Source: a virus | IMG/VR virus record: IMGVR_UViG_3300010392_000649 | Location: 1 to 30,458 of that record | DNA length: 30,458 bases | Strand: one strand, 5' to 3' | Part shown: positions 309 through 22,420 of the stretch, one piece after another | How the letters are laid out: each line of letters opens with the position of its first letter | Position numbering within the stretch: the first letter of the stretch is position 1 | Program-made: the position numbers and the translations under genes | The notes under the pieces: model-generated | Database searches by the model: none | What the model was told of the DNA's origin: nothing | Seen by the model: only the letters and a program-made list of their open reading frames with translations

Positions 309-920
309 ATGGAAGACAACGACAAGAAGCCCGATAGTGTCGAGCCGAAAAGTCAGCCTGCTGAAGGTGTACCGACGCAGGAAGCTGAATTTGTTGCGCG
401 TAAAGCATACGAGGAAGTGTCTAGTGACATGCACAAGTATAAGCAACGCTATAAAGAAGCCCAAGCCGCGAAGAATGAATATGCGACTAAGCTGAAATCA
501 ATTGAGGAAGAAACCTTGAAAGATCAAGAGCGTTGGAAAGAACTTTACGAACAGGGAAAGGCTGAAAAGGAACAACTAATGGCTGATAGAGATAAAGAGA
601 AACAACTCTACTCTAAGTCTGTGAAGCTTGCCGCGCTGAAGGCGCAGTTGGGCGGAAAGATTAAGGATGAGTACCTCTCTCTAGCTAATGTATCTGGCAT
701 ACAACTTAACGAAGACGGAACACTTAGCTCTGATAGTGTACACGAAGTCGCTAACGCGTTTCGCCAAGAACACCCTATGTTGATCCCCCAGGAGGCTTCA
801 GGTAATGTTACCGGACAAGCCCCTACGAACTCTGCAATTAAAACCAAAACTCTGGATGATATGAGTATCGACGAGAAGGTTGAACTCTTAACCCAGATGA
901 GCCCTAATAGGAGAAAATGA
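309..920 (+). CDS. capsid scaffolding protein
   Basis: A 203-residue, highly charged protein lying directly before the major capsid gene, the usual place for a phage scaffold. Residues about 30-105 are rich in Lys, Glu, Gln and Ala with heptad-like spacing and should form a long coiled coil. A short less charged region (about 105-175) follows, and the C-terminus ends in basic PNRRK, as expected of a scaffold tail that binds the inner capsid surface. Size and layout match gp20-like/DUF4355 scaffolds of siphoviruses. The start has a good ribosome site (GGAAGGAG, about 293-300) and the stop overlaps the capsid start, so the two are translationally coupled. No protease-like domain is fused to it. 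Confidence 0.85.
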   Translation: MEDNDKKPDSVEPKSQPAEGVPTQEAEFVARKAYEEVSSDMHKYKQRYKEAQAAKNEYATKLKSIEEETLKDQERWKELYEQGKAEKEQLMADRDKEKQLYSKSVKLAALKAQLGGKIKDEYLSLANVSGIQLNEDGTLSSDSVHEVANAFRQEHPMLIPQEASGNVTGQAPTNSAIKTKTLDDMSIDEKVELLTQMSPNRRK

Positions 921-1795
921 TGGCTTCATTTACCACAGCGAATACTGGTGATACAGAACGCGAGATTATATCCAGTATCGTTCAAGAACAACTTTTACAA
1001 GAAACTAAACTACTTCACACTGTGCGAGACGTATCCAGCATGGTCGAAAAGGGTATGAAGACGCTAGAATTGCCCCGCTTTGACAGTCGGTTTGCAGGTC
1101 CTGCTACTCAGAACCCTGATGGCGAAACTCCAGTTACTGCCCAGACTCTTGATCTGGCAACTGACGTTTTAGCGCTTGACCAGTGGAAGAACTTACCATA
1201 CAGAATCCCGGATAGAATTGCTATGCAATCAGCAGTTCCTCTCCAGGCTGAGTTGGCTAAGTCTGCTGGTAGCGAAATGGCTATTTATGTAGATCAAGAA
1301 ATTGCTGCTCAACTTAAATTGGCTGCTGATGGAACTGGCGGATTGCCTGACCATATCATCCAAATGAGTGGTACTTCTAACCTCGTAATCACTCTGGGAG
1401 ATATTACTGAAGCTCGTCGTCTATTGAATGTTGCTAATGTTCGTGACGATGGTAACCGTTTCCTTTCTATCTCTCCTGAGCAAGAAAAGGCCATGTTGAA
1501 TATCGATAATTTCATCAAAGCTAACGAGTATGGTTCTCGCGAAGCTTTACTTAACGGTGAAGTTGGCCGAGTGTTCGGTTTTCGCGTAGTTGTTTCAAAC
1601 TCTTTTTCCGGTGCCGAGGCAGTGGCCTATCATAAAGATTGTGTCGCTATTGGTTTCCAAAAAGGCGTTGACTTCGAAGCTCAGAGAGCTGATGTTACTA
1701 TTCGCGCTACTGACTACAGTTATGCTGTTGGTTGGGGACGTACTGTTCTTGAGCAGGGCGTTAAGCAAGTATATTTGAACGCTACTGGATCTTAA
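920..1795 (+). CDS. major capsid protein (HK97 fold)
   Basis: A 291-residue shell-forming protein. It follows the scaffold gene, has the usual length for a capsid protein without a long prodomain, and shows capsid-like features: an N-terminal helix region (EREIISSIVQEQLL), a segment reading SPEQEKAMLNIDNF and later GRVFGFRVVVSNS, which resembles the 'vsP....l......G.v.G..v..Sn' line of many phage capsid proteins. Two ATGs in a row lie at 917 and 920; the second is preferred because AGGAG (909-913) is then six bases away. Codon choice is strongly biased: 13 of 16 Arg codons are CGN and GCT/GTT/ACT dominate, unlike most neighbours, as expected of the most abundant virion protein. A terminator follows immediately. 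Confidence 0.9.
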   Translation: MASFTTANTGDTEREIISSIVQEQLLQETKLLHTVRDVSSMVEKGMKTLELPRFDSRFAGPATQNPDGETPVTAQTLDLATDVLALDQWKNLPYRIPDRIAMQSAVPLQAELAKSAGSEMAIYVDQEIAAQLKLAADGTGGLPDHIIQMSGTSNLVITLGDITEARRLLNVANVRDDGNRFLSISPEQEKAMLNIDNFIKANEYGSREALLNGEVGRVFGFRVVVSNSFSGAEAVAYHKDCVAIGFQKGVDFEAQRADVTIRATDYSYAVGWGRTVLEQGVKQVYLNATGS

Positions 1796-1810
1796 TCCTT
1801 TAGTTAATTG

Positions 1811-1838
1811 GGGCCTGGCTTCGGCTGGGTCCTTTTTT
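1811..1838 (+). terminator. intrinsic terminator after capsid gene
   Basis: A nine-pair stem (1811-1819 with 1824-1832, including G-T wobbles) closes a C(TTCG)G tetraloop and is followed directly by six T (1833-1838). It lies 16 bases after the capsid stop and overlaps the start of the next ribosome site (TGGAG). As the downstream genes have no clear promoter here, it probably acts as a partial terminator that lowers expression of the genes behind the capsid gene. Confidence 0.85.
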
Positions 1839-1847
1839 GGAGATTAG

Positions 1848-2051
1848 ATGGACCATCAACCCCCCGCATCATTAGAAGCTAAGACAAAGCAAGAGTTGCG
1901 AGCAATTATAAGAGCGAATAATAGAAGGCACGGGTTTAGATTCCATTATTTTGATTTCTCATACGCACAAGGGAAATGGCATTGTTGGTTCGAAGTTAGC
2001 GAAGCTGAGCTAGCAACAAAAAAGGCAGAAGATGAGCATCTCAAACAATAG
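1848..2051 (+). CDS. small hypothetical protein
   Basis: A 67-residue protein that I do not recognise. It starts with a good ribosome site (TGGAG, just after the terminator T-run). Sequence is basic in the first half (TKQELRAIIRANNRRHG), has an aromatic middle (FRFHYFDFSYAQGKWHCWF) and ends in an acidic/basic helix. The end overlaps the next gene by 20 bases. It is the first gene of the post-capsid cassette. No domain, signal or membrane segment is visible. Confidence 0.6.
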   Translation: MDHQPPASLEAKTKQELRAIIRANNRRHGFRFHYFDFSYAQGKWHCWFEVSEAELATKKAEDEHLKQ

Positions 2052-2454
2052 GCAGGACCGAGACAAGGCAGCTTATATAGAGAACCCTGATGACCAGGGC
2101 ACAGACAGGCGCGTCCAAGATCTTGTAGGGAACGATCTTCTTCAAGACATTGTAAACGCACTAGCGGGAGCCTCCGCTGCAACGAAAACCATACACGATA
2201 ATGGTACTGTTGGGACTAGCAACATACAGGTACCAAGCACACCCGGAGGAAAGATTCACTCCATATTGATTAAAAACAAAGAGTCCAATCCAGCCGACGC
2301 TATAATTAAAGTAAGCTTTGACGGCGGGACCGAATACTTTGACATACTTAATAATGAAAACTTTACTATAGATGTAGCAAGTAAACCAACACAGATAGAT
2401 CTGATCGCCACCGAAGCTGGCGTAGAATATCAGATTCTAATGAACACGGAGTAA
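2032..2454 (+). CDS. virion-associated beta-rich protein
   Basis: A 140-residue protein. After a polar N-terminus (NNRQDRDKAAYIENPDDQG) and a short helical stretch, residues about 55-140 look like an all-beta domain, with alternating hydrophobic residues in short strands (for example IHSILIKN, IIKVSF, IDLIATEAG). This type is common as a small accessory virion protein in marine siphoviruses; a capsid decoration role is possible given its place one gene after the capsid gene, but is inferred. The ribosome site is weak and the start lies inside the previous gene, suggesting coupled translation. Confidence 0.6.
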   Translation: MSISNNRQDRDKAAYIENPDDQGTDRRVQDLVGNDLLQDIVNALAGASAATKTIHDNGTVGTSNIQVPSTPGGKIHSILIKNKESNPADAIIKVSFDGGTEYFDILNNENFTIDVASKPTQIDLIATEAGVEYQILMNTE

Positions 2455-2456
2455 AG

Positions 2457-2639
2457 ATGGCATCAATTGGAAACGCCGTTATTGCGAAACTCAAGCTATG
2501 CGTCAAGCACCTAGTTACTAAGAGCATAACTGTGGCTGATGGCGAGACCTGCTTTCATTCAAATACGATGATTCAGGCAGGCTCTAGTGTTACAATAAAC
2601 GGAACCGGAGAGTTCATCATAATAGGGACGGGCGGATAA
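2457..2639 (+). CDS. small beta-structured protein, fibre-associated
   Basis: A 60-residue protein of unknown function. The second half (MIQAGSSVTINGTGEFIIIG) resembles the short repeating beta strands found at the ends of phage fibre and spike proteins. It starts two bases after the previous stop and its stop overlaps the start of the large fibre gene by one base, so it is probably made together with that fibre, perhaps as its cap or attachment piece. This role is inferred from position and strand pattern only. Confidence 0.55.
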   Translation: MASIGNAVIAKLKLCVKHLVTKSITVADGETCFHSNTMIQAGSSVTINGTGEFIIIGTGG

Positions 2640-5188
2640 TGGCTAAGTTAACTTTCGAAAATGTATCATCAGTACCTACCCCGGCAACAGGCAAGACCGC
2701 CATATACGTAGACTCTGCTGATAAGCACACAAAACAGATCGATGACACCGGGGCAGTAATAGACCTTACTGAAGAAGGTAACAATGATAAGGTTAAGGCC
2801 TCATCAAACGACTCCACCGCAGATTACCTTTTGAACAAAGTTGTTGCAGCAGACGAGTCGAACTCCTCTAACATTTTAGAAGTAAAAGAAGTAAACGACG
2901 GCGGGGATGAAGACCTCAAGATAGCAATAGATGAAACTAAGATAGATCATGATAACTTAACCAACTATGTAGTAGGAGAACACACAGACGCACAAGTAAA
3001 GGTGTCCAGTAACGACAGCACTCCTGGGTATCTGGAAGACAAGATAGTAGTTGGCGATGGATCTAATACTTCTACTGCCCTAGAAAAAACTATATTAAAT
3101 GACGGCGCTGATGAAGACGTTCAGATACAGTTTGACGAAACTAAAGTTGACCACGACGCTTTACTTAATTATGCCGTTGAGCAACATAGAGTCATAAATG
3201 ACGTAAGTACATCGACCACCGAACTTTTTAGTGCGGATAAGATATTAGCTTTATTCACTGCATCATTTCAAAATAGAGACCACAAAGATTCGGTTCTCAC
3301 GGTATCAACTTCAAACATTACTTTATCTGGAGAGCAAACTTTAAACGGAGTCTTAACGAGCGCCTCTCGGGTTGGTGTTGTTGGACAGACTGACCCCATT
3401 GAAAATGGAATCTACGTATCAGACTCTGGCGCATGGACTCGAACAGACGACGCCGACGGCGATCCTGAAGTAACCAATGGATTGAGTTTTTTCGTTGCAG
3501 ATTCAACTTCGACTAAATTGGGTTCAGAGTACTTACTGATAACTCCTGATCCAATAGTTGTGGACACCACAGGGTTGACCTTTATAGAAGTTCCCCGAAT
3601 TGAATTGGGGACAACCTCAGGAACCGCTGCCGAAGGTGACGATTCTAGGATTCCCGCACAAGATGAGAATGATGCTTTAGTCGGTACTAACGGAGCCCCG
3701 AGCACGTCCAATAAATATGTCACAAATTCTGATCCAAGAAATTCAGACGCCAGAACCCCAACTGCCCACGAAAGCACACATAACGAAGGTGGCTCTGATC
3801 CATTAAAGTTAGATGACTTAGCTATTCCTGATGATAACACAGACCTCGATGCGTCCACTTCTAAGCATGGACTAATGCAGAAATATCCAGGTGGAACTAG
3901 CGACTTTTTGAGAGGCGACGGCACATTTGCCGCACCTCCAGGAGCAGCTAGTCCCTTGACTACAAAAGGTGATTTGTTTGGTTTCTCCACGGTAGATGCT
4001 AGAGTTCCAGTAGGCACGAATGGACAAAGGCTTGAAGCTGATTCAACAGCAGCTTTAGGTGTTAAGTGGGCAGATGAAGTCGTTCCTGCTCCTGCCTGTT
4101 ATGGAAGTTTGTCTATGGAAGGTAATTCTACAGCTACTACTATTTCTACTCAAAGCGTACCAGTAAAGGCAGCAGGCACAACAACAGCCGAGCTTCTACA
4201 AGACTTCACTCACACAAGTAATAAACTAACCTACACTGGTACTGATACTGCTAAATTCTTGGTGAATGTTAGTATCTCAATACAAGCTGGTATTAACAAC
4301 GATGAGTCTTTAGCTGTTTTAGTATATAAAAATGGAGTCCAAGAGTTTGCTGAAATAGTTGATACTTGTAAGAAACTATCAGACGACAAGCCAGGGCAGC
4401 CTAGTAATACTGCGATTGTTAGTTTAGCTGAGAATGATTATATCGAAATTTGGGTAGCTAACAATAAGTCCACTGAAAATGTTACAGTAAAACATATGAA
4501 CGTAACAATTACTTCTATTGGAGGCAATGGCGCTCAAGGCGCTGATGGAGCTACTGGAGCTACTGGAGCTACTGGAGCTGGCGCGAATATCATTGTTCAA
4601 AAGGATGATGTAACAGTCGGAACTGTGACAGACACACTTAACTTTGAAGGCTCTGGTGTTTCTACCGTAGTAGACGAGGGGTCAGATAAAACCACAGTTA
4701 CAATTACTGGTGGCGGTAGTGTTGCTCAACTCTTTGATTTCGGCTCTAACGAAGTTATGTATCCCACTAATATGTCAGGTACAGCCTCGTCAAGAAACGG
4801 CCATAGCATAATTGATTTTGATGACACTGACAACGAGGAAGTAATTTTTGAAGGCGTAATGTCTAATGATTATTTAGACGGTAATATAAGTATTGATATT
4901 TTTTGGACCGCAGCTTCTACAAGCGGAAATGTTAAGTGGGATGTAAGTTTTGAGAGAATGAACGGAGACATCGACACCGACTCTTTTGCTGCTGTTCAAA
5001 CTGCCACGGCAGCTCCAGACGGAACATCTGGAATTATCAAGAAAACAACTATTGTATTTACTCAGGCCCAAGCCGATTCAATAGCAGCGGGAGAGCTTAT
5101 GAGGATTAAAGTCGCAAGAGACGCAAGTGCGGGAGCCGACACAATGACGGGCGACGCAGAACTGCTTCGAGCGGTAGGGAGACAATAA
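2639..5188 (+). CDS. large fibre protein with collagen-like repeat
   Basis: An 849-residue modular virion fibre. Residues about 51-110 and 120-178 are two copies of the same module (shared SSNDST, D.DETK.DHD, and closing NY). The middle holds segments usual in phage tail fibres: ENGIYVSDSGAWTRTDDADG, then TAHESTHNEGGSDPL, and FLRGDGTFAAPPG. Near residue 631-648 is a short collagen-like Gly-X-Y run (GADGATGATGATGAG), a common trimerising shaft in phage fibres. The C-terminal part (about 697-849) looks like a separate beta-sandwich. Unlike most fibres it is encoded between capsid and head-tail connector, so it might be a head fibre rather than a tail fibre. Confidence 0.75.
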   Translation: MAKLTFENVSSVPTPATGKTAIYVDSADKHTKQIDDTGAVIDLTEEGNNDKVKASSNDSTADYLLNKVVAADESNSSNILEVKEVNDGGDEDLKIAIDETKIDHDNLTNYVVGEHTDAQVKVSSNDSTPGYLEDKIVVGDGSNTSTALEKTILNDGADEDVQIQFDETKVDHDALLNYAVEQHRVINDVSTSTTELFSADKILALFTASFQNRDHKDSVLTVSTSNITLSGEQTLNGVLTSASRVGVVGQTDPIENGIYVSDSGAWTRTDDADGDPEVTNGLSFFVADSTSTKLGSEYLLITPDPIVVDTTGLTFIEVPRIELGTTSGTAAEGDDSRIPAQDENDALVGTNGAPSTSNKYVTNSDPRNSDARTPTAHESTHNEGGSDPLKLDDLAIPDDNTDLDASTSKHGLMQKYPGGTSDFLRGDGTFAAPPGAASPLTTKGDLFGFSTVDARVPVGTNGQRLEADSTAALGVKWADEVVPAPACYGSLSMEGNSTATTISTQSVPVKAAGTTTAELLQDFTHTSNKLTYTGTDTAKFLVNVSISIQAGINNDESLAVLVYKNGVQEFAEIVDTCKKLSDDKPGQPSNTAIVSLAENDYIEIWVANNKSTENVTVKHMNVTITSIGGNGAQGADGATGATGATGAGANIIVQKDDVTVGTVTDTLNFEGSGVSTVVDEGSDKTTVTITGGGSVAQLFDFGSNEVMYPTNMSGTASSRNGHSIIDFDDTDNEEVIFEGVMSNDYLDGNISIDIFWTAASTSGNVKWDVSFERMNGDIDTDSFAAVQTATAAPDGTSGIIKKTTIVFTQAQADSIAAGELMRIKVARDASAGADTMTGDAELLRAVGRQ
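4547..4579 (+). repeat. 9-bp tandem repeat coding collagen-like GAT units
   Basis: The unit GGAGCTACT occurs three times in tandem and then partly a fourth time, coding Gly-Ala-Thr triplets within the fibre gene. Such repeats can gain or lose copies and so change shaft length without breaking frame. Confidence 0.85.
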
Positions 5189-5860
5189 ATGAGTAGACTT
5201 TTTGATGAGAATAACTCTAATTATTTGTCTGCGAGTAGCGCAGCTTTACCCGACGCGCCTTTAATGATAAGTCTGTGGTTTAGAGTGACAGATTTAAGCA
5301 CAACAAACGATCAAGTTTTATTCAATATCGGAAAAGCGATTGGCACAAAAGGCTACCGGATTTTTATTGATATTGCCCGTACTGGAGATTTAAAACTAGC
5401 TTGGGAAGTAGAAACAGCTACAGAAAGTTGGGACATAAAATCAATATCGGCTTTAAACGAAAACCAATGGTATCACGTCGCAGTTAGAGAAATAGCTTCG
5501 GACGCTAGACAATTATGGTTAGATGGCGTTTTTCAAAATGGAAACAGTACAGATCTTGATCCGGGAGGTCTTGACGTAACTTACATTGGAAAAGATGTTT
5601 CTTATAGCGATCCATTTGCGGGGGATATATCTCATGTTGCGCTTTGGAATACTGTTCTAACCGAAATTGATTGTAAATCATTGGCGGCAGGTGTTTCGCC
5701 GCTTCGAATAAACAGAGGCGGATTAGTTAATTACTGGCCACTAAACGGACAATCACCAGAAACGGACATTGTAGGCGGCTTACATATGACAGTTAACGGC
5801 TCGCTCATAAGGTCTACTAACCCCCCAAGGGTAAGGCAACCAATGAAGGCAGGAACGTAA
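5189..5860 (+). CDS. LamG/concanavalin A-like fold virion protein
   Basis: A 223-residue protein that begins at the base after the fibre stop. It has the pattern of the LamG/ConA-like jelly-roll family (Laminin_G_3 type): PLMISLWFRV near the start, then RIFIDI, ENQWYHVAVREIA, RQLWLDGV, DVTYIGKDV, FAGDISHVALWNTVL and a closing GGLVNYWPLNG. Domains of this kind bind glycans or act as surface decorations. Phages often carry them on capsid surfaces or fibres. No catalytic residues of a hydrolase are evident. With the fibre upstream it probably forms part of an adhesive structure on the particle. Confidence 0.75.
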   Translation: MSRLFDENNSNYLSASSAALPDAPLMISLWFRVTDLSTTNDQVLFNIGKAIGTKGYRIFIDIARTGDLKLAWEVETATESWDIKSISALNENQWYHVAVREIASDARQLWLDGVFQNGNSTDLDPGGLDVTYIGKDVSYSDPFAGDISHVALWNTVLTEIDCKSLAAGVSPLRINRGGLVNYWPLNGQSPETDIVGGLHMTVNGSLIRSTNPPRVRQPMKAGT

Positions 5861-5861
5861 G

Positions 5862-6101
5862 ATGAGCGTTGAAAACAAACTAGATAAATGCCTGGAGTCC
5901 ATACACCGCATAGAGTTATGTCAAGTTGAAATTAAGGCAGATTTAGAAAGAAACACAGATGACGTAGAGGAGCATATAAAGCGCACTAACCTCCTTGAAA
6001 AGAAACTATCAAAGGTTTACACATTCGCGCTGATTGCTGCTGGCTTTGTTGCAGCTAAATACGGAACTGACGTTTTTAAAATAATTGGAGCTATGTTATG
6101 A
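5862..6101 (+). CDS. small coiled-coil membrane protein, possibly holin-like
   Basis: A 79-residue protein with a charged helical N-terminal part (about 1-50, with heptad-like Leu/Ile spacing) and one hydrophobic C-terminal stretch (about 53-79, FALIAAGFVAAKYG...IIGAML). This layout resembles XhlA-type holin-associated proteins, so it may be part of lysis. It could also be a membrane anchor for infection. No endolysin lies beside it, and its neighbours are virion genes, so the holin reading is weak. The end overlaps the connector start (ATGA). Confidence 0.5.
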   Translation: MSVENKLDKCLESIHRIELCQVEIKADLERNTDDVEEHIKRTNLLEKKLSKVYTFALIAAGFVAAKYGTDVFKIIGAML

Positions 6102-6937
6102 TTGACCCCCGCACAGTACTGACAGTAAAGCACGATGACGATAGTTCTTTTGCTGACTACAGCGAGAAGGCTAAGGACTACCTTAGAGACACCTTCACTA
6201 TTGAACTGATTGCCGCTGAAGACTACCTCTATCTGGGATACACTAAACCCTTCGGCTCCGCCTACGTAGAATTAGAAACTCCAAATGTTAACGCCAACTC
6301 GCTAACTGCTGAATACTGGGACGGAGCTACATGGCAGAGCATGGACCTAACAGATGAGACTGAGGGCTTCACCCGCTCGGGATACCTCATGTGGGATAAA
6401 GAGCAAATGGTGGACGGGGAGACAGTGGCCGTAGACAGCGACGACAAGTACTGGTTTAGAATACGCCCTGACGCCGATCAAAGCTCTACTGTATTTAGAG
6501 GCATCAACCTAGTGTTCGCAGATGACGCTACGCTCAAGCAAGAGTTCTTCGAGATCGATAATACTAATATGCTACCCCCAGGCGAATCAAGCCACATCAG
6601 CGTCCATGTAGCTTCTAGAAACTATATCATACAGAAGCTTCGGAACCTAGGATACATAAAAGACGACTCAACTAGCGGGGATATGATTATAAACCAATGG
6701 GACCTCATGGACATGTTCGAGATTAGACAAGCCGCCGTCTACTTGGCGCTTAGTAAGATCTTCTTCAATCTATCAGACGACCCGGAAGACCATTGGTGGG
6801 CCAAATACAGGGACTATCAAGACAAGTTTGAGAGCGTCAAGTGGCCTGCTCAGTTAACAGTAGACATAGACAACGACGGGGAGACAGACCCTGATGAACA
6901 GGCGGCTCCTATTAAAGTCGTTAGGTGGAGAAGATAA
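6098..6937 (+). CDS. head-tail connector/adaptor protein with N-terminal beta domain
   Basis: A 279-residue protein in two parts. Residues about 1-150 are beta-rich (YVELETP, LTAEYWDGATWQSM, KYWFRIRP, GINLVFADD), resembling discoidin-like domains. Residues about 165-250 are mainly helical (YIIQKLRNLGYI, DLMDMFEIRQAAVYLALSKIF, YRDYQDKFESV), the pattern of gp6-like head-tail adaptors that close the portal ring. Position before the tail-end and tail tube genes supports this. Residues 256-267 read DIDNDGETDPDE, an exact EF-hand calcium loop (Asp 1, 3, 5, Glu 7, Asp 9, Glu 12). The start overlaps the previous stop as ATGA. Confidence 0.6.
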   Translation: MIDPRTVLTVKHDDDSSFADYSEKAKDYLRDTFTIELIAAEDYLYLGYTKPFGSAYVELETPNVNANSLTAEYWDGATWQSMDLTDETEGFTRSGYLMWDKEQMVDGETVAVDSDDKYWFRIRPDADQSSTVFRGINLVFADDATLKQEFFEIDNTNMLPPGESSHISVHVASRNYIIQKLRNLGYIKDDSTSGDMIINQWDLMDMFEIRQAAVYLALSKIFFNLSDDPEDHWWAKYRDYQDKFESVKWPAQLTVDIDNDGETDPDEQAAPIKVVRWRR

Positions 6938-13072: not shown

Positions 13073-15919
13073 ATGGCCCGCAAGATAAGCTTTTTTGATG
13101 GAGCTAGTTCAGAAACAACCCCGACCATAGGGAACATAGTCGCCTCAGACTTAGTCACATACGCAAACGACGCTGCCTTTGAAGCAGCAGAACAGGGCTC
13201 CCCTAAGAGAGGCAACATCTACTTCAGCACTGATCTAGACCTAGTAAGGTACTACACCGGGACTGCGTGGGTTAGCATCGTAGACGAGACAAGTACACAG
13301 ACGATTGAAAACAAAACTATTGATGGCACTGACGCTACTGGTAACAACACAGTAACCACAGACGCCTCGGATGTCACTTACGACCCTGCGGGGTCAAGTC
13401 TAACTTCAACAGACGACCAGGCTGCCATAGACGAGGTTGCCGGAAGACTAGACACGAACGAAGGAGATATCGATGATTTGGAAACGCTTTCTGGTGTTCC
13501 TGGTGATACCAACTATGGTGTATTTTCTGGTACTACTATATCTGATAATACCACTACTAAGCCTGCTCTCCAAGAGTTAGAGACTGCCGTAGAGGCCCGC
13601 ATACTCTCCTCTGAGAAGGCCGCAGCTAACGGAGTAGCAACTCTAGACGGGGCTGGTAAGCTCCCTGACAGTCAACTTCCGACCTCAGTAGTAGGCGCTG
13701 TTGTCTACAAGGGAACATGGGACGCAGACACAAACACTCCTACCCTGGCAGATCCCGGAACGCAAGGGCATTACTACATAGTGTCAGTTGGGGGAACGCA
13801 AGACTTAGGCTCAGGGTCCATAACATACGATGCTAAAGATTGGGTTATTTCTGACGGAACTACCTGGGCAAGAGTAGATAACGTAGATCCAGCTACCACT
13901 GATGAGCTCGCCGAAGGGTCCACAAACCTTTACTACACTGAAGGCCGCGTTACGGCCAACACTAGCGTTACTGCTAACACAGCTAAGGTAAGTGCTGATG
14001 GGTCTATCGATACTCACTCCGACGTAGACACTACTACCTCGGCTCCTGGACTAGGAGAAGTCCTCGAATGGGATGGGTCTAACTGGGTACCAGCTGCTGG
14101 CGGCGGAGGTTCCGGATCGGGAGGCGTTAACTACGTTCCTGAAGGGGACTCCAGAAATTCAGAAGGCGCGACTGTAGGTGACTGGGTTGCTTATTACGAC
14201 GGACCTGTAGCTGACCCTATCGACGGAGTGGGTGGAGTAACAACAGGGCTTGGTCTATCTTCATCTCCAGCGTTTAAAGTTCGAGAAACAAGATCCATAC
14301 TAATGAGTATCAGCACTGGAACTCCTCAAGGTTTAGGGATTAGTGTTGACCTTAATCCTATTGACCAGATGGACGAGGGGGGAGAGCTAACAGTACGGTT
14401 CGATTATCTGATATCCTCAATGATTGCATCAGTGGAACAACTACGGGTATACGTATACGACATTGATAACGCAACTCTTATCGGTCCGGTTAGAAACGAT
14501 GATGACGGGTATGTGAGATCATACCAAAGCTCACTAAACTACAACACCTTCGTTGGGAACTTCAGTGCTACAGACTCCTCCAACTATAGGTTAATTTTAC
14601 ACAACACAGCAAGCACGGAGACTATTTACAACTTCGCATTAGACAGCGTCAGCGTAGGTCCATCCCCATTGGTTCCCGGAGCAATCGTTACCGACTGGAC
14701 AGCATACACCCCGGTTGGTTCTTGGACGAGTAATGTAGAATATACCGGACAGTGGAGACGCGTAGGCAGCGAGATGGAAGTTAGAGTTGGCGTGACATTA
14801 ACCGGGTCTCCGAATGCTTCAACGCTAACTGTAGATATGCCTCCTGGCTATGAGATTAAGATATCTAAGATGCCCAGCGAAGCTGACTATAGAGACCCAG
14901 TAGGAGATCTTTACATCAGAGACACTCTCCCCGCAGAATATCGCGGCGTGGTAAGGACACATGATATTGATTCGGTTAGACTTCAAATACCTAACGCAGC
15001 GTCCAACACTATCACAAACGTAAATGAGACAACACCGATAACATTTATTTCTGGAGATGAACTTAATTTCTGGTTCAAGGTTCCTATAGAAGGCTGGTCC
15101 GCAGGGGCTATGCTTAATACCGATGAGGTCAATCTTATTACCACAAGGGTAAAGGGAGCAGACAATGGCGGAGAAGTTTTAACCGCAAATGTTACTGATA
15201 TGACCTTTACAGAAACCCTAGACAACACCGGGTCCTGGGACGGCCAGAAGTTTACTGCCCTAAGGGATGGCGACTATTATGTATCAGGATCGGCCTCCTA
15301 CACTGCCGCTAACACCGCTATAGTTAATGCCTACGTGGATGGCACAAAGACATCCGTTCTCGGTGTGGGTGATGGGGCTTCTGTCAGTCAGTTCTCAGGT
15401 ACCGTTTATCTAGACAAGGGAGAAGAGTTATCGTTACGAGTGGATGCAGGATCTACACTATTATCTAGCGCAGTAGACCATTCAATCGCTATAACGGGAC
15501 TCCCTAACTTTACGACCTTCAGCGTATACGGGAAGACCGACGTAATACAGTCCGGCTCTGCTTTCGGTAACTACGCATTCACGGTAAACCAATGGGCCGA
15601 TATGGCAGCGAAGGCGCTTCCGGGTGACGGCTCCAGGTGGGACGTATACATTCATGCAGTCTTTGATTGCAACGGAGCTACCACTACCACTGATATCAAG
15701 GTTGGGGTAGGTACAGTTGGAGGCAATGTGTCCCCGGGTATAGATGGGTTCGATTACGTTACAGGAACTAAGTCCAACGCTACAACACAAAGGGACACCA
15801 TAACATATATGCTTCATGATGTAGCCGGAGGCCAGACTATTTACGCTAAGGTTTACGCCGCTACCTCCACAACTAACCTCAGGTATGCGCACAAAATGAC
15901 CGCAAGGAAGATACAATGA
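13073..15919 (+). CDS. large tail fibre protein with C1q-like domain
   Basis: A 948-residue modular fibre. Residues about 190-270 form a module widespread in phage fibres (LDGAGKLPDSQLP, VYKGTWDADTNTPTL, GHYYIVSVGGTQDLG, AKDWVISDGTTWARVDN), followed by TNLYYTEGRVTANTSVTAN and a Gly-Ser linker (343-351). A segment about 540-610 (WTAYTPVGSW...YTGQWRRVGSEMEVRVGV) is another known fibre module. Residues about 685-810 look like a C1q/TNF-type jelly roll (FTALRDGDYYVSGSASYT, VYLDKGEELSLRV), typical of trimeric receptor-binding heads. A further beta domain (about 815-948) closes it. A good ribosome site (TAGGAG) precedes the ATG. Probably contacts the host surface. Confidence 0.8.
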   Translation: MARKISFFDGASSETTPTIGNIVASDLVTYANDAAFEAAEQGSPKRGNIYFSTDLDLVRYYTGTAWVSIVDETSTQTIENKTIDGTDATGNNTVTTDASDVTYDPAGSSLTSTDDQAAIDEVAGRLDTNEGDIDDLETLSGVPGDTNYGVFSGTTISDNTTTKPALQELETAVEARILSSEKAAANGVATLDGAGKLPDSQLPTSVVGAVVYKGTWDADTNTPTLADPGTQGHYYIVSVGGTQDLGSGSITYDAKDWVISDGTTWARVDNVDPATTDELAEGSTNLYYTEGRVTANTSVTANTAKVSADGSIDTHSDVDTTTSAPGLGEVLEWDGSNWVPAAGGGGSGSGGVNYVPEGDSRNSEGATVGDWVAYYDGPVADPIDGVGGVTTGLGLSSSPAFKVRETRSILMSISTGTPQGLGISVDLNPIDQMDEGGELTVRFDYLISSMIASVEQLRVYVYDIDNATLIGPVRNDDDGYVRSYQSSLNYNTFVGNFSATDSSNYRLILHNTASTETIYNFALDSVSVGPSPLVPGAIVTDWTAYTPVGSWTSNVEYTGQWRRVGSEMEVRVGVTLTGSPNASTLTVDMPPGYEIKISKMPSEADYRDPVGDLYIRDTLPAEYRGVVRTHDIDSVRLQIPNAASNTITNVNETTPITFISGDELNFWFKVPIEGWSAGAMLNTDEVNLITTRVKGADNGGEVLTANVTDMTFTETLDNTGSWDGQKFTALRDGDYYVSGSASYTAANTAIVNAYVDGTKTSVLGVGDGASVSQFSGTVYLDKGEELSLRVDAGSTLLSSAVDHSIAITGLPNFTTFSVYGKTDVIQSGSAFGNYAFTVNQWADMAAKALPGDGSRWDVYIHAVFDCNGATTTTDIKVGVGTVGGNVSPGIDGFDYVTGTKSNATTQRDTITYMLHDVAGGQTIYAKVYAATSTTNLRYAHKMTARKIQ

Positions 15920-16152
15920 GAAAGATGAAATGGTATTACCATACCGATAATGGACACCCTCAAATTGAGCTCTCCACACATGCGCCTATTGGTGAGTGGT
16001 ATGAAATTGACGACAGATATCCATGGGCGGAAGTATACGATCTTTTAATAGACGAAGACGGTAGTAAAGCATTGTTTATTAGCGAAGAGAAGTTAGCAAA
16101 TAGATTGGACAGTGAAACCCGGAGAGAGCATGAGCTTCGAAAACAGAAATGA
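15916..16152 (+). CDS. small hypothetical protein of tail cluster
   Basis: A 78-residue protein of unknown function, coupled by an ATGA overlap to the fibre before it and overlapping the next gene by 23 bases. It is acidic with many aromatic residues in the first part (MRKMKWYYHTDNGHP, EWYEIDDRYPWAEVY) and ends in a charged helix (SEEKLANRLDSETRREHELR). It may be a fibre chaperone or a small virion part, but nothing in the sequence decides this. Confidence 0.6.
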   Translation: MRKMKWYYHTDNGHPQIELSTHAPIGEWYEIDDRYPWAEVYDLLIDEDGSKALFISEEKLANRLDSETRREHELRKQK

Positions 16153-18697
16153 GTATATAACCGCACAGTCTTCAGAGAAGGCAGTGTTGGCTTGGACACA
16201 CGCAACTACCAGGCTCATAGAGTGGACCTTGGGAGCAGGCGCTGTCTATAGGAAAATAGTGCCTTACTTTGTGTACCAACTAAAGCAGCTGACTGTAGAG
16301 CTAACCCGTGTAGATACCCTCGGAGCTGTAGTTGAGGGTAGTTTCTACTACGATATACATACCAGCATAGTGTACGTGTGGACTAACGGCTCAACCAATC
16401 CCACAACAGACGAAGAGATGATATGCACATACCGCTTCTTCTATTCCAACACACCAATCACAGCCTCGTGGGACCTGTCCAATACATCAGATCACGTACA
16501 GTACGACCCAAGAATCATTCGCTCGCCTGGTTATAAGCATAAGATAGCAGTGGAGCAGGACCTTATATCGACAGTTGGTTCCGGAACGCTGCGACTTGAG
16601 AACAACGATGGCGGGCTGGATGATATATTCGACACAGTGTTCTTTGAGAATCAGGTAGTCGAGATCTACAGTTGGAACAGACAACTTCAGTTTGAAGATT
16701 CGCAGATCGTATACAAGGGTCGCATCCAGAATAAGAACTTCAACACCAAGGCTGTATGGTTCGTCATTAAGGACCAGATCCATGACCTACTTCAGAACGT
16801 CCCACAGGACGCCTATACAGACGCAGACAATGTAAACAGCGACATCAAGGGTCGATATAAAAGATGGATATACGGGCGCGTAGCAGGCCTCAAGCTACAG
16901 TCTCTTGACCAGATAGGAGAGGGTTACCTCATTACTGGAACGGTCAGTGGCGACCCTACTACGCTCGTTGTAACAGGCACTACTACTACATTCCTTGCAG
17001 AGCTAAGCCCGGGAGACAAGCTAACAGTTGAGAGTCAAGAGTTCGAGATCGAAAGTGTAGAGAGCGACACCTCGGCTACCATTACGGATCTTCCTGAATA
17101 TGCCTTTACCAATCAGCCCGGATCCCTCAGTCCAGAGATACCAACAGTAACTAAGAACAGAGAGTTCCTCGTATCAGGTCATGCCTGCACGGAGCTATCT
17201 AAGACAGTTGTGGACGTTATACAGTTCAACCGCGTCCAGTTAAGCGACGTTATCGGGTTAGAAGCCGGAGACTTCCTTGAGTTTTCAACAGGCGAGCGTG
17301 TGGAGATCAAGAACACAGCACCGGGGGACATAGTTGTTCTCAGACAGAACCTGATACTCATTCCGAGCGTCTCCTCTACAGTAATCAGACAACCCGTACA
17401 GAGAGTCTTTGTTGAAGGGAAGTCAGTCGAAGCAGAAGACTTTACTATAACTAATATAGGAGCGCCTACTAACTCGTGTCAGGTAACGCTAGATTCAGAC
17501 GTAGAGTTCAGGCTATCGCGAGCATCTAGTATCTCCATCGACATGACGTTCACTAACGGGACCAGAGACATCACTACAGTAGAAGTAGTTGATCTCCGGG
17601 ACACATTCTCCCCAAGAGATTGGATCCGCCCAGCAGACCTCACGTACTCAACATACTACGAAGTGTTATCTGTAGAGGAACAGTCCATAAAGATCAGAAC
17701 CTCGTTTGTAGACCCTACGATTACTGATACTATTACTGCTAAATTTCCGAACTATATCGGTGACGAAACGGTGATATCCGCAGACATTCTTGGCAGAACC
17801 GAAGACGGGGAGCCTAGTGGTGTTTGGATCCGCACAGGAGCGCAAGCGGTAAGAGACCTAGTTGAAAGCATAGGCATCACAGATTACTTCGCTCCAAGTT
17901 TCGACGAGGCAGAGCTAGATAACAAAGCCCTTATATCTGTAGCCGTACCAAGCAGCCCCGCTGGTAGTCAGGAGACAGTTAAGAGCGTAGCTGATAAGAT
18001 CAATCTAAGTATAAACGCTGCCCTTACTTTGGGTCCCAACTTAAAGCTTCGCTATAGAGTGTTGAACCCACAGATAATTGAAGACGACCTACTAGAGATC
18101 TCTGACAGGGACGTTATCGACTGGTCCGTGCGTACTACTAACGGTAAGACCTACGGGAACTCTCTTGCTAGGTACAGACACGCAGATGTGGACAGGGCTA
18201 CCCTTGATGCAGGGAACTTAGCGCTTACTTACGAGAGTGAATTCGTTCAGAACTATATCGGAACCAATCAAGGTTCAGAGATTGACTTGTACCTCTACAA
18301 TGATAACGAAGCCAACATAGCACTGCACAGACACATATACTACAACAGCCTAGGTCGTACCGACATTACTCTTGAAACAGACCTCCGACTTGAAGCAGTC
18401 AAGATAGGCGACCAAATCCAGATAAACTTTGATCGACTATACAAGCGCCTCGGTGACAAGTCTAGCCGGAAGAAGATCTGCATGGTAGTGGGCCGAACAG
18501 TTACTGGCACTAAAATTAAATTGGACCTTACCGACCTCGGAAACATATACAACCGCTCATCTATAATCACGCCTAATACTGCCCCCGACTGGAGCGCTGC
18601 AAGTGAAGATGAGAAAATTAAATACGGGTATATCACAGACGACAACGGTCTAATTGATAACGACGAAGACACAGGAAACATCCACTTAATCTCATAG
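16130..18697 (+). CDS. tail hub/tail-tip structural protein
   Basis: An 855-residue virion protein in the tail-tip cluster, placed where the central hub (tail-associated baseplate protein) is expected. Text features that recall hub or gp27-like parts are a middle that begins TASWDLSNTSDHVQYDPRII and a C-terminal region GRTDITLETDLRLEAVKIGD, then QINFDRLYKRLG. Residues about 270-327 (GTVSGDPTTLVVTGTTTTFL, then SPGDKLTVESQEFEIESV) are an inserted beta module seen in many phage structural proteins. The ATG at 16130 is chosen over an earlier GTG (16112) because GGAGAG (16121-16126) precedes it. No lysozyme or peptidase motif is visible. The exact tail role is inferred. Confidence 0.6.
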   Translation: MSFENRNEYITAQSSEKAVLAWTHATTRLIEWTLGAGAVYRKIVPYFVYQLKQLTVELTRVDTLGAVVEGSFYYDIHTSIVYVWTNGSTNPTTDEEMICTYRFFYSNTPITASWDLSNTSDHVQYDPRIIRSPGYKHKIAVEQDLISTVGSGTLRLENNDGGLDDIFDTVFFENQVVEIYSWNRQLQFEDSQIVYKGRIQNKNFNTKAVWFVIKDQIHDLLQNVPQDAYTDADNVNSDIKGRYKRWIYGRVAGLKLQSLDQIGEGYLITGTVSGDPTTLVVTGTTTTFLAELSPGDKLTVESQEFEIESVESDTSATITDLPEYAFTNQPGSLSPEIPTVTKNREFLVSGHACTELSKTVVDVIQFNRVQLSDVIGLEAGDFLEFSTGERVEIKNTAPGDIVVLRQNLILIPSVSSTVIRQPVQRVFVEGKSVEAEDFTITNIGAPTNSCQVTLDSDVEFRLSRASSISIDMTFTNGTRDITTVEVVDLRDTFSPRDWIRPADLTYSTYYEVLSVEEQSIKIRTSFVDPTITDTITAKFPNYIGDETVISADILGRTEDGEPSGVWIRTGAQAVRDLVESIGITDYFAPSFDEAELDNKALISVAVPSSPAGSQETVKSVADKINLSINAALTLGPNLKLRYRVLNPQIIEDDLLEISDRDVIDWSVRTTNGKTYGNSLARYRHADVDRATLDAGNLALTYESEFVQNYIGTNQGSEIDLYLYNDNEANIALHRHIYYNSLGRTDITLETDLRLEAVKIGDQIQINFDRLYKRLGDKSSRKKICMVVGRTVTGTKIKLDLTDLGNIYNRSSIITPNTAPDWSAASEDEKIKYGYITDDNGLIDNDEDTGNIHLIS

Positions 18698-18705
18698 GAG
18701 ACACT

Positions 18706-19218
18706 ATGGCATACACAGTCATCCCAGCAGGCGACATAGTCGCAGGGAAACCGACAAAAGAAGAGATCTTTGATCAGATCAGAACAAACCAAGAGCACTT
18801 TAATGATGAGATTGAGGCTCTAAACCAGACGGCTATTGAAGACGTTATGAACTTTCGCTTCACTGGGTCATTAGATCAGTACACAGTAGCTGAAGTAGCA
18901 AGTAGGATCCCTACATACAAAGCCCCTATTTCTGCTACTATAGTTGGTTTCAACATGACACTTCTTGAGGCTTCAACATCGGGTACGCTTGAGATTGAAT
19001 TAGACAAGTCCACAGACGACGGAGTTAACTGGACGCCCCTGTTGGACACCCCAGTGGAACTTACCGGAACTACTGTTGGTTCTCTCAGTGGCTCTGTTGA
19101 CTGGGTGGATGTCCCGTCACAAAGCTTCGCCCAGGGAGATCTACTTCGTATCAGAGTGACCGCTGTACAATCAGGGCAAGGTAGTTTTCAACTTCACATA
19201 TATGGAGAGTTATCATGA
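18706..19218 (+). CDS. virion structural protein, possible adhesin connector
   Basis: A 170-residue protein with a short helical N-terminus (VAGKPTKEEIFDQIRTNQEHF followed by NDEIEALN) and a beta-sandwich C-terminal part (about 60-170: ISATIVGFNMTLLEAST, LEIELDKSTDDGVNWTPLL, LLRIRVTAVQSG). Such pairings occur in tail accessory proteins of siphoviruses, where the helix docks on the tail and the sandwich carries surface contacts. Ribosome site AGGAG lies at 18696-18700. It overlaps the glycine-rich gene by ATGA, so the two are probably made and used together. Confidence 0.6.
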   Translation: MAYTVIPAGDIVAGKPTKEEIFDQIRTNQEHFNDEIEALNQTAIEDVMNFRFTGSLDQYTVAEVASRIPTYKAPISATIVGFNMTLLEASTSGTLEIELDKSTDDGVNWTPLLDTPVELTGTTVGSLSGSVDWVDVPSQSFAQGDLLRIRVTAVQSGQGSFQLHIYGELS

Positions 19219-19940
19219 GCGCTAGTGTTATACATTTCATGGATAAAGGCATGTGGGCCTCTGAAGAATTCACTTCCAATGATACCTTCAATGTACCTGC
19301 CGGGATCAACGCAGTATTTATTGAACTAATTGGCGGGGGCGGGGCTGGTGCTGAAGGCGGAGACGGTAACGGCGGTAATGGCGGAAACTCTGGGGTTAGG
19401 TTAGTGGACGTTGTGCCCGTAACTCCCGGAGGAAGCGTATCTATCACGATAGGTCCCGGAGGAACTAACTCAGAGGCTGGCGGATCGGCTAAGAACGATG
19501 GCGGTCCCGGAGGGACTACTTTATTTGGCGGGATCATCTTTGCTAAAGGCGGCAGCGGGGGGTTTGCTCATACTCTATCCACATACCAGGGGGAAAATGT
19601 AAGCTCTTATCCCGGACAAGGCGCCGGGGGGCTAGCGGGAACAACTACTGGTACGGTTCTTATAGCCGGAGCAGAAAGCGGTCAAGATAGTATCAGGTAT
19701 ACAGGCGGAGGTGCTGGTACTGGCGACGGTGCTGGCGGCGGGGGAGCGGCATCTACATATGGAGCCGGGGGGGTTGGTGGTAACTATACTGTTAGCGGTA
19801 CTGCTCCTGCTGGCGGAATTGCCCCTAGCTCGTCTTACGGAGCCGGGGGCGGGGGCGGAGGGTCCACTGATTCTGATAGTGCTGCCGGAGGTAGCGGAGC
19901 TCCAGGATACATCAAAGTAAGCTGGGTAAAACCTAACTAA
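19215..19940 (+). CDS. glycine-rich receptor-binding adhesin
   Basis: A 241-residue protein with a short beta start (FNVPAGINAVFIELIGGGG) and then many glycine-rich loops with Gly runs of three to six (for example GGGGAASTYGAGGVGGN and SYGAGGGGGGSTDSDS), ending GYIKVSWVKP. This is the pattern of glycine-rich phage tip proteins with a polyglycine-II-type core and variable loops, as in gp38-type adhesins of T-even phages (a comparison of layout, not an alignment). It is the last late gene, as receptor-binding proteins often are. It probably sits at the fibre tip and decides host range. A ribosome site (GGAGAG) precedes the ATG. Confidence 0.7.
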   Translation: MSASVIHFMDKGMWASEEFTSNDTFNVPAGINAVFIELIGGGGAGAEGGDGNGGNGGNSGVRLVDVVPVTPGGSVSITIGPGGTNSEAGGSAKNDGGPGGTTLFGGIIFAKGGSGGFAHTLSTYQGENVSSYPGQGAGGLAGTTTGTVLIAGAESGQDSIRYTGGGAGTGDGAGGGGAASTYGAGGVGGNYTVSGTAPAGGIAPSSSYGAGGGGGGSTDSDSAAGGSGAPGYIKVSWVKPN

Positions 19941-20260: not shown

Positions 20261-22420
20261 TTACCAAATTTCCTTACCTACAATATATTGTACCATTCTA
20301 CCTTCATTCCTCTTCAATGCATAGTTTGGAAACACTCCCACATCCAGCACATTCTCAAACGTCTTAAGTGTATTAAACAACTTACCATACAACTTCTTCT
20401 TACAGATTACTCCATCGAAGTTTTCCCTGAGGGAGAGTTGGTCTTCTTGTCTGAAGTAGACATAGATCTTATCCCCCTCCTGGAGTAGACGTCCCGACCT
20501 CTGGGCTGCCTCCTTAATTCTTGCTTCATTTGTTCTCTCAGGATTAAGTACCGCCTTTGTGATCGTCTTTTTTGAGCACCAATCAGAAACATCAGACCCA
20601 CTGTTAAAATTATAAATAGTATTTGCGTAATTGTTATAAAGATCATACAATTCATCCTTTCTATTCATCAATAACTTCTCGATTACCTCACCCATAAACT
20701 CTCTAAGAGCTGGTTCTTTCATTGGGGCCTTTAATGAGTTACCTTTTATTACAATCCTTTTGGGGTCCACCAAAACATAGTTCTTAGCCTTGACGATCAG
20801 CGCCTTGTCGTACTGTCCGTCATTCTCCCACCTAATCATATCTGGGAAGTTAGTATTAAGATCGTCTATTTCAGTAGTGAACTCCTCTGGGCTCAGCTTC
20901 TTGCCTGTGGTGTAGCTGAAGGAGTCGGTGTCCACGTTAACGATAGCGTACTCACGAGCCTTAGCCCACTTAACGCCCCGCTCTAGTATCTCTCTACCGT
21001 ACCCGGTAACCTCCGCAGCATGGTCAGGCGAATTAAAGTTCAATCCGGGACATCCCATGAACCCATAGGCCGAGTTAATAATGATCTTCTGCGCTTGCTC
21101 CAGATCTCTATACTTTCGTTCTCCTGTTTCGTTAGCCAACTTTTTATTAGAGAGTCGCTCGTCAGTGAAGGCCTCGACCATTTCGAGGAAGTTGGCTTTA
21201 GGGTCTTTCTGGCGGCTGTAGATCTTGTACTCCCTGATAATCGAAGGGTATAGACTAGCAACGTCCACCTTGTTGACGTGACGATACAATCCGGGATTCC
21301 CGTAACTAATGCCTCCCGCGTAATGGTGCGTCTCTGACGCCTTGGGTAACGAGTGTCCCTCCTGTAGATAACTCCGAACTAAGAACGCATTGATCTGGCT
21401 CCCGGTAGATCTACCAGAGTTAATAACCTGCTGGAGGGTCTTGGGTATGGACTGTAGGGAATAGAAGTAAGGCGCGATCATTAGGTCGTACAACGCTAGA
21501 GCGTCATCAGCATCGTGCTCGGCATACGTGCAGATCTTCTCGAACTCTACGGGGTCCTGATAAGTATCTCTGATAGAGGCTGCATCGTAATACTGTCTAT
21601 CTTCGCGCACGAGCCCTTCTTGCTGCATGATACTTTTAAGTCCATAGCTTTCATAATTTCCAGCGACATCGTATTTAATCGACAGAAAGAACGTGTCAAT
21701 GAGCTCTCTCCCGAACACGGACACATCTCTATAGTCGTAGAACTGGCTTGCATCCTTTCGGAACTGTCTTGGGTTTTTTGCAAACTTAGCTTTGGACCCA
21801 TCTCTGCCCAGCTGGAGCCCGAACACGCCAGAGCAATAATAAAGGTAAGGAAGGTCAAAACCAAATATATTGTGGCCCGTAAGAAAAGTCGGGTCCATTT
21901 TTCTGATCCATCTGCACCACGCATTAATCATCTCCTCGTTAGTTTCATAGTCACTATACTTGAATAGCTTGCGCATAACCTTCCCGTCTTTACGGAACGT
22001 ATTAGAAATCAATACGACCAAAGAGGATTCGTCATGAGTAAGCCCGGTAGTTTCAATATCAAAGCTTAAGATGGACACATCGCTGGGCTCTAATCCCTTG
22101 AAGTAAGTGTATCCCTGCTTAACCATAAGCGATTCAGCTGGGTGATATACTCGGTACGAGTTGGCTCCTGATTGGCGAGCTTCCCTCTCTGCCAAGTACT
22201 GAACCTGGCGGGACTCGTATTTCTCCGCGTAGCGGAATGGGAGGTCCCCTTTAAGGGTAGTCATCCCAAGCTTATACTCGTGATCGTATATCGTCCAATA
22301 CTCTACAGGCACCTCTACTGACTCTTCCTCGTGCCGGAATACCGTGTATGTGTCTCCTTTCAAAGAGATATTAGTAATCTTGTCTAGTTCGTTATTCCCG
22401 TATAGAAATTTAGAATTCAT
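20261..22420 (-). CDS. family B DNA polymerase with 3'-5' exonuclease
   Basis: A 719-residue replicative polymerase. Exonuclease motifs: FDIETT (about 120-125), GHNIFGFD (about 182-189) and YAEHD (about 299-303, the Y...D motif). Polymerase motifs: YAGG (about 367-370), VDVASLYPSII (about 385-395), KIIINSAYG (about 445-453) and VDTDS (about 496-500), with KAKNYVL later for the KxY motif. All catalytic acids are present. It lacks the terminal-protein-priming insertions I would expect in phi29-type enzymes, so RNA/DNA-primed synthesis with the upstream primase-helicase is likely. ATG at 22420 is chosen over a TTG at 22423, as AGGAGGGG stands six bases before it. The start overlaps the preceding gene's end. 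Confidence 0.92.
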   Translation of the reverse strand: MNSKFLYGNNELDKITNISLKGDTYTVFRHEEESVEVPVEYWTIYDHEYKLGMTTLKGDLPFRYAEKYESRQVQYLAEREARQSGANSYRVYHPAESLMVKQGYTYFKGLEPSDVSILSFDIETTGLTHDESSLVVLISNTFRKDGKVMRKLFKYSDYETNEEMINAWCRWIRKMDPTFLTGHNIFGFDLPYLYYCSGVFGLQLGRDGSKAKFAKNPRQFRKDASQFYDYRDVSVFGRELIDTFFLSIKYDVAGNYESYGLKSIMQQEGLVREDRQYYDAASIRDTYQDPVEFEKICTYAEHDADDALALYDLMIAPYFYSLQSIPKTLQQVINSGRSTGSQINAFLVRSYLQEGHSLPKASETHHYAGGISYGNPGLYRHVNKVDVASLYPSIIREYKIYSRQKDPKANFLEMVEAFTDERLSNKKLANETGERKYRDLEQAQKIIINSAYGFMGCPGLNFNSPDHAAEVTGYGREILERGVKWAKAREYAIVNVDTDSFSYTTGKKLSPEEFTTEIDDLNTNFPDMIRWENDGQYDKALIVKAKNYVLVDPKRIVIKGNSLKAPMKEPALREFMGEVIEKLLMNRKDELYDLYNNYANTIYNFNSGSDVSDWCSKKTITKAVLNPERTNEARIKEAAQRSGRLLQEGDKIYVYFRQEDQLSLRENFDGVICKKKLYGKLFNTLKTFENVLDVGVFPNYALKRNEGRMVQYIVGKEIW

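Follow-up and report, generated by a model that had tools for sequence, protein, structure and literature searches.

Positions 2032 to 5860 of the window (the whole stretch of DNA that was analysed, 30,458 bp long and taken from IMG/VR as a virus record) hold a set of four genes beside the capsid gene (MCP) that is exchanged as a unit among related phages. The set includes a fibre gene with constant ends and a variable middle and a gene for a protein with a lectin domain. Our preferred reading, to which we give a probability of about 0.5, is that this is an exchangeable adhesin cassette for head-borne attachment structures in a group of uncultured long-tailed phages. We infer that the cassette proteins would be present in the virion and located on the head, that the small protein p140 would bind the capsid, and that the set would have a glycan-binding role.

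Organization of the locus

The left part of the window encodes, in order, a virion morphogenesis protein, a scaffold-like protein, the MCP, six ORFs and a neck/connector-type protein; p154 (a 154-aa neck/tail protein), the tail tube protein, the tape measure and a fibre set follow. In phages the space that separates the capsid gene from the neck genes is usually short. In the window this interval spans 4.3 kb of densely packed genes, and all the ORFs that the initial annotation had placed in it were found. The features are listed below.

309..920, + strand: scaffold-like protein upstream of the MCP gene, backbone landmark (PF06810 Phage_scaffold, E 1.8e-6, under the curated cut-off; kept in relatives)
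917..1795, + strand: MCP, left landmark (phrog_267, E 1.3e-25)
1810..1840, + strand: intrinsic-terminator-like stem-loop and T-run (10-bp stem, 6 GC pairs)
1848..2051, + strand: p67, 67 aa, backbone gene (18-member alignment; similarity tracks the MCP)
2032..2454, + strand: p140, 140 aa, left end of the mobile cassette (AlphaFold model; N-terminal motif in relatives)
2457..2639, + strand: p60, 60 aa, beta-rich, beside the fibre, cassette member (70% identity in L018)
2639..5188, + strand: 849-aa fibre, cassette member (phrog_11518 tail fiber, 1.4e-20)
5189..5860, + strand: LamG/concanavalin-like lectin protein, 223 aa, right end of the mobile cassette (PF13385, 1.5e-17)
5862..6101, + strand: coiled-coil protein with a C-terminal transmembrane (TM) segment, 79 aa, backbone gene (14-member alignment; architecture and position)
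6098..6937, + strand: neck/connector-type protein, 279 aa, right landmark (position; kept in all relatives with the region)
13073..19940, + strand: separate tail-fibre set after the tape measure (minor tail and tail fibre PHROGs, PF21722), with members at 13073-15919, 16112-18697, 18706-19218 and 19215-19940

The six ORFs are probably transcribed as one unit together with the neck and tail genes, because their junctions range only from -20 to +2 bp (overlaps or gaps) and no terminator-like site was found on the + strand in the interior of the block. The capsid gene proposed earlier is well identified by its PHROG match, and the second fibre set claimed after the tape measure is present. The connector claim fits by position, but no family model gives the 279-aa protein a name. 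Since the only match in a PDB search paired its N-terminal domain with residues 530-624 of 'orf18', a protein of 818 aa (9efk, E 3.8e-9), the term connector is used here as a positional assignment. The tail tube protein is likewise named from its position (its PHROG match is minor tail), and PDB searches with it and with p67 gave no match. Further downstream, at 20261-23999 on the minus strand, opposite to the structural genes, lie genes for a Family B DNA polymerase (PF00136) and an AAA_25 ATPase.

Relatives and contents of the slot

No match to the MCP, the connector, the tail-tube protein or p67 was found by tblastn in 50,697 phage records. The backbone has no counterpart among cultured phages, and its relatives are uncultured viral contigs. 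In search of a host, bacterial genomes were scanned once with the tail-tube profile, and no prophage was found. Scans with MCP, connector and tail-tube profiles yielded about 34 distinct relatives after overlapping loci were merged. Both the MCP and the connector are present in 20 of these, which together with the window makes 21 genomes. MCP identity to the window is 46-57% in most relatives and about 20-25% or less in L032, L034, L039 and L040. The MCPs of two of these (L032:4672-5556 and L034:4731-5612) are only weakly similar to the usual MCP of the group (normalised score about 0.13), although the scaffold, connector and tail tube of the same genomes are close relatives of those of the group. 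It seems that in these two genomes only the MCP was exchanged for another or evolved rapidly; p67 is altered along with it.

The interval between MCP and connector is filled with 1.7-4.6 kb in 18 of the 21 genomes (the window and 17 relatives). The three nearly empty intervals and the main types of filling were as follows.

L039:8594-8671, nearly empty, 78 bp
L057:5794-6087, nearly empty, 294 bp
L056:4955-5632, nearly empty, 678 bp
Window and L018: fibre and LamG protein
L017 and L019: LamG-bearing long proteins
L012 and L013: large fibre-like proteins
L032 and L034: coiled repeats
L002: strings of small beta-rich proteins (L027 is similar, on a contig that stops short of the connector)
L060: cement-like domain (PF09956, below cut-off)

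The position beside the MCP is conserved across the group with fibre, lectin and decoration-like contents, which supports the initial annotation in this respect, and since the filling varies between genomes but keeps to the slot, the arrangement in the window is not a local rearrangement. In L064, an unrelated phage, the N-terminal module of the window fibre was found at 454-1689, preceded by two small beta-rich ORFs. It is located there between a head gene and a protease/MCP pair, so that placement in the head block is not peculiar to the group of the window. The K1 capsule-lyase C-terminal domain (PF24146) is a domain of phage spikes, and a slot protein of L059 (7269-7898) ends in it (E 3.4e-22).

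At the right edge of the slot, the connector gene in relatives is preceded by a coiled-coil and TM protein or by a PF05105 holin, often with a papain-like protein before it. Holins of the PF05105 type occupy the position of the TM protein in L015 (14122-14508) and L020 (13420-13806), and one just before the connector was recognized by eye in L048 (3230-3616); in all three genomes a lysis gene lies within the morphogenesis block. The papain-like protein, of about 160 aa, carries a PSHxxxL...FCxE pattern that by eye is NlpC/C92-like. It precedes the TM protein in many slots and is absent from the window. Examples are given below; the L022 protein matches PF05708 at E 0.04 only.

L017:8957-9442, papain-like slot protein
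L022:9809-10291, papain-like slot protein
L034:8007-8489, papain-like slot protein
L044:8012-8503, papain-like slot protein
L002:5835-6296, papain-like slot protein

Searches of the 14 aligned TM proteins, including the 79-aa protein of the window, against the Pfam holin and XhlA families gave no match. By architecture and position only, the window protein looks like a lysis-type backbone gene of the holin/XhlA kind. The initial annotation had grouped this membrane protein with the fibre genes; that assignment is not retained, as the protein is placed like a holin and belongs to the backbone.

Borders and exchange of the cassette

The borders of the mobile unit were located by comparing the window with the relatives L018 and L022. 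The latter two share 71% identity in the MCP, 63% in p67, 45% in the TM protein, and 69% each in the connector and p154. The window shares 32-51% with either of them in the MCP, p67, the connector and p154 (36% between window and L018 in p67) and gives no match in the TM protein. L018 nevertheless carries the cassette of the window, with 60% identity in p140, 70% in p60, 57-60% in the fibre ends and 38% in the LamG protein, whereas L022 has no counterpart of these L018 sequences except 32 residues of the p140 N-terminus. Because L018 and L022 are sisters in the boundary genes, yet only L018 has the window-type set, the mobile unit is placed by sequence comparison at 2032-5860, with borders between p67 and p140 and between the LamG protein and the TM protein. 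The cassette outlined earlier is thereby trimmed: p140, p60, the fibre and the LamG protein move, but p67 and the coiled-coil/TM protein stay with the backbone.

Pairwise similarities in 15 genomes, and in a second set of 14 genomes without two highly divergent MCPs, were used to examine covariation. With the effect of the connector removed, p67 follows the MCP (partial rho 0.71, p 0.001, n=15; 0.49, p 0.014, n=14). The TM protein leans to the connector (partial rho 0.37, p 0.04; 0.32, p 0.08, n=14). No covariation with the MCP was seen for the p140 N-terminus (partial rho 0.09 and -0.14), and its relation to connector similarity gave partial rho values of 0.12 (p 0.18, n=15) and 0.23 (p 0.06, n=14). 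As p67 also lies directly 3' of the MCP gene in most relatives and forms a single alignable family of 18 members, these alignments mark it as an MCP-tracking backbone gene outside the mobile cassette. Adjacent genes co-vary by linkage alone, and so the covariation marks exchange borders and is not proof of capsid binding by p67. Most deep branches of the connector tree lack support, and it gives no direction of cassette gain or loss.

Proteins of the cassette

In the AlphaFold model of p140, residues from about 51 to 140 form a beta-sandwich and residues 1-48, which take in an N-terminal peptide of about 45 residues, are of low confidence. A fold search gave only generic beta-sandwich matches, among them a weak one to the HFTV1 turret (8qpg, E 9.8e-3). 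In relatives the ORF after p67 usually starts with a motif like RDRDxAAYxENPxDxGTDRRV, which has diverged in several of them, and the remainder of the protein is unrelated. The p140-type N-terminus thus bears different C-terminal bodies across relatives: in L017 and L019 the body is LamG, in L032 and L034 it consists of long repeats, and in L060 it is a phage cement domain that is sub-threshold (PF09956, E 0.0021, 18.9 bits against a cut-off of 24). The slot proteins of the window gave no match to PF09956. The short protein p60 has a counterpart in L018 only; short beta-rich ORFs upstream of the fibre were also seen by eye in L015, L045, L048 and L064.

The fibre has a conserved N-terminus of 45 residues, common to L018 and L045, a swapped middle and a conserved C-terminus of 155 residues, common to L018. 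Apart from the ends it shares just two short stretches with the L018 fibre, and with that of L045 the N-terminus only. L018 was the only other phage in which a scan detected the C-terminal domain, and the AlphaFold model of this domain (pLDDT 58) was below searchable quality. The protein also has an ENGIYV-type domain (aa 204-340) and a jelly-roll-like region (aa 481-627). The collagen repeat reported earlier is present but comprises just six triplets (GAQGADGATGATGATGAG). Residues 204-340 match proteins annotated as 'capsid/head decoration' in PSS2, Yvonnetastic and Trina. These labels were dropped as proof of a head role since the genes concerned sit among tail or unrelated genes.

For the LamG protein, the fold suggested earlier is borne out by PF13385 (Laminin_G_3), which scored 64.6 bits, above the curated cut-off of 27.6. 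In L017 and L019 LamG is fused to a preceding p140-type N-terminus, which supports a link of LamG to p140. The adhesin character of the cassette is well supported by the LamG and fibre domains recognized in its sequence.

Head, neck or tail

The head location is favored by the place of the cassette in the head gene block beside the MCP, apart from the tail-fibre cluster, in the window and 17 relatives, and by the build of p140, in which a putative capsid-binding N-terminal segment with a recurring motif precedes a modelled beta-sandwich. This N-terminus does not co-vary with the MCP, although an anchor on the capsid might well do so, and this counts against its fitting the capsid tightly. The annotated decoration labels discussed above, being on genes near tail or unrelated genes, also stand on the negative side.

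The MCP gene is followed by a stem-loop at 1810-1833 and a T-run (fold z = -2.3). The initial annotation was right that a terminator is present here, but not that it serves the cassette in particular: comparable stem-loops follow the MCP gene in 17 of the 18 loci examined, among them L039, which retains one inside its 78-bp interval. Control specific to the cassette was ruled out on this ground, and because the stem-loop precedes the tail genes as well. It would set all downstream genes, tail genes included, below the MCP level. This argues for fibre amounts closer to those of tail than of capsid proteins, and against a capsid-like copy number.

The expression level that the terminator would give to the cassette suits the main rival to a head location, in which the fibre and the LamG protein form collar whiskers where head and tail join, as in T4 fibritin or the lactococcal neck passage structure. 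The slot also runs straight into the first neck-type gene, whose reading frame overlaps the preceding one, with no terminator at this junction, and lactococcal 936 phages bear carbohydrate-binding modules on their neck passage structure (PMC6669499). However, exchange of the cassette is not coupled to the neck genes, as L018 combines neck genes of the L022 type with a cassette of the window type, and p140 is not tied to connector similarity by the partial correlations given above. The fillings of several genes for small beta-proteins (L002, L027) are also unlike one collar protein. We regard neck whiskers as unlikely.

It is distinctly improbable that the cassette encodes tail-tip or side-tail fibres that just happen to lie within the head block. 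The domain families of the fibre are known mostly from tail fibres, its best-named family being 'tail fiber', and repeats of tail-fibre proteins recur in slot genes of L022 and L060; both points count against the head reading. On the other hand, relatives also keep a complete fibre set of its own downstream of the tape measure, and the slot fibre had no blastp match at E 0.01 to the proteins encoded at 13073-15919, 16112-18697 and 19215-19940. Gene order in relatives had been chosen beforehand as the refuting test for the initial annotation. In all group contigs fetched, LamG, p140, p60 and the fibre ends were found only in the slot beside the MCP and not in the tail-fibre cluster, which keeps the cassette distinct from the tail fibres.

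A general cargo slot, or hot spot, without a single function, in which read-through past the MCP terminator suits moderate late expression of decoration, adhesion or lysis-type genes, also appears quite doubtful: the slots do hold a mixture (lectins, repeats, the K1-lyase C-terminal domain, PF05105 holins and papain-like proteins of the C92/NlpC kind) and the p140 N-terminus tracks neither MCP nor neck, but p67 and a p140-type N-terminus hold fixed places in most filled slots, suggesting a common attachment logic, and the lysis-type genes are mostly found at the right-hand end of the slot, beyond the unit that the window shares by exchange with L018.

Comparison with known systems

The head fibres gp21 and gp29 of the Bacteroides phage crAss001 have capsid-binding N-terminal peptides (residues 1-38 and 1-58) followed by a small exposed domain, and residues 1-58 of gp29 bind a hexon pocket below an Ig-like domain (PMC10172136). 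This plan of an N-terminal peptide and an Ig-like beta-sandwich would resemble that of modelled p140. Genes for holin, peptidase and lectin proteins surround that of gp29, which is located a short way ahead of the MCP gene. crAss001 differs in being podovirus-like with T=9 and in its order of fibre then MCP, and an exchanged block of anchor, fibre and LamG is not described for it in the cited literature. Comparison of the p140 family with gp29 gave an hhalign probability of 0.1% and no significant blastp or HMM match. Homology of p140 and the TM protein to gp29 and gp28 was rejected, and for gp29 this lack of homology weighs against the head reading.

A head spike of two parts on a long-tailed particle, like the proposed p140 and fibre, is found in RcGTA (base Rcc01079, fibre Rcc01080). 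Its beta base is bound to the capsid by the N-termini and holds the fibre by the short N-terminus of the latter (PMC7296036), and the spikes bind capsular polysaccharide (PMC7296036, PMC10218006). There is one fibre per capsid vertex. In the Bacillus phages, SPP1 gp12, which is collagen-like, and phi29 gp8.5 are fibrous head decorations tied to cell-surface binding rather than to capsid strength (PMC7602432). The phi29 protein joins a beta-tulip base to a spike formed by a helical supercoil. The genes of both adjoin the capsid gene. They differ from the cassette in being single proteins without a LamG partner. HFTV1, a tailed virus, carries on its capsomers a turret with a base (gp30) and a head with a galactose-binding-like domain (gp31) (PMC12494034); it is an archaeal virus, however, the turret head has a deacetylase-like domain, and judging by the numbers gp30/31 are not adjacent to the MCP gene, gp19. 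The neck passage structure of the 936 siphophages consists of a long fibre protein of about 500-900 aa with alternative carbohydrate-binding tips, and the related TP901-1 collar is non-essential (PMC6669499). Unlike the cassette it is a single protein of that size and belongs to the collar, not the head, and a two-ended exchange beside the MCP is not described for it in the cited literature. It is plausible, with the even odds given above for a head location, that the cassette works like known head fibres; the likeness would be one of function and is no claim of membership in those protein families.

Proposed function and significance

A mechanism can be proposed on the head reading. p140 would bind the capsid through its short N-terminal peptide and present its beta-sandwich as a base, on which the fibre may dock by its conserved N-terminal 45 residues. 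The variable middle of the fibre and the LamG protein could then bind glycans on host cells or on nearby surfaces, adding reversible attachment to that by the tail-tip fibres. Recombination between phages would refill the slot stepwise, with the MCP-linked p67 and the neck-linked TM protein as the bounds of the steps. A broader proposal, somewhat short of an even chance in our judgment, is that the slot is a port for head adhesins, with fixed docking beside the capsid gene (p67 and anchor peptides of the p140 type) and complete payloads of fibre and lectin swapped from lineage to lineage, which would give the head a glycan-binding range evolving on its own besides the tail fibres.

Swapping of tail fibres is the textbook route by which phages change their attachment targets. 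If head adhesins are swapped as whole cassettes, independently of capsid and neck type, phages would have a second and largely overlooked locus determining their range of attachment, and gene position beside the MCP would be a usable cue for such systems in phages known from metagenomes only.
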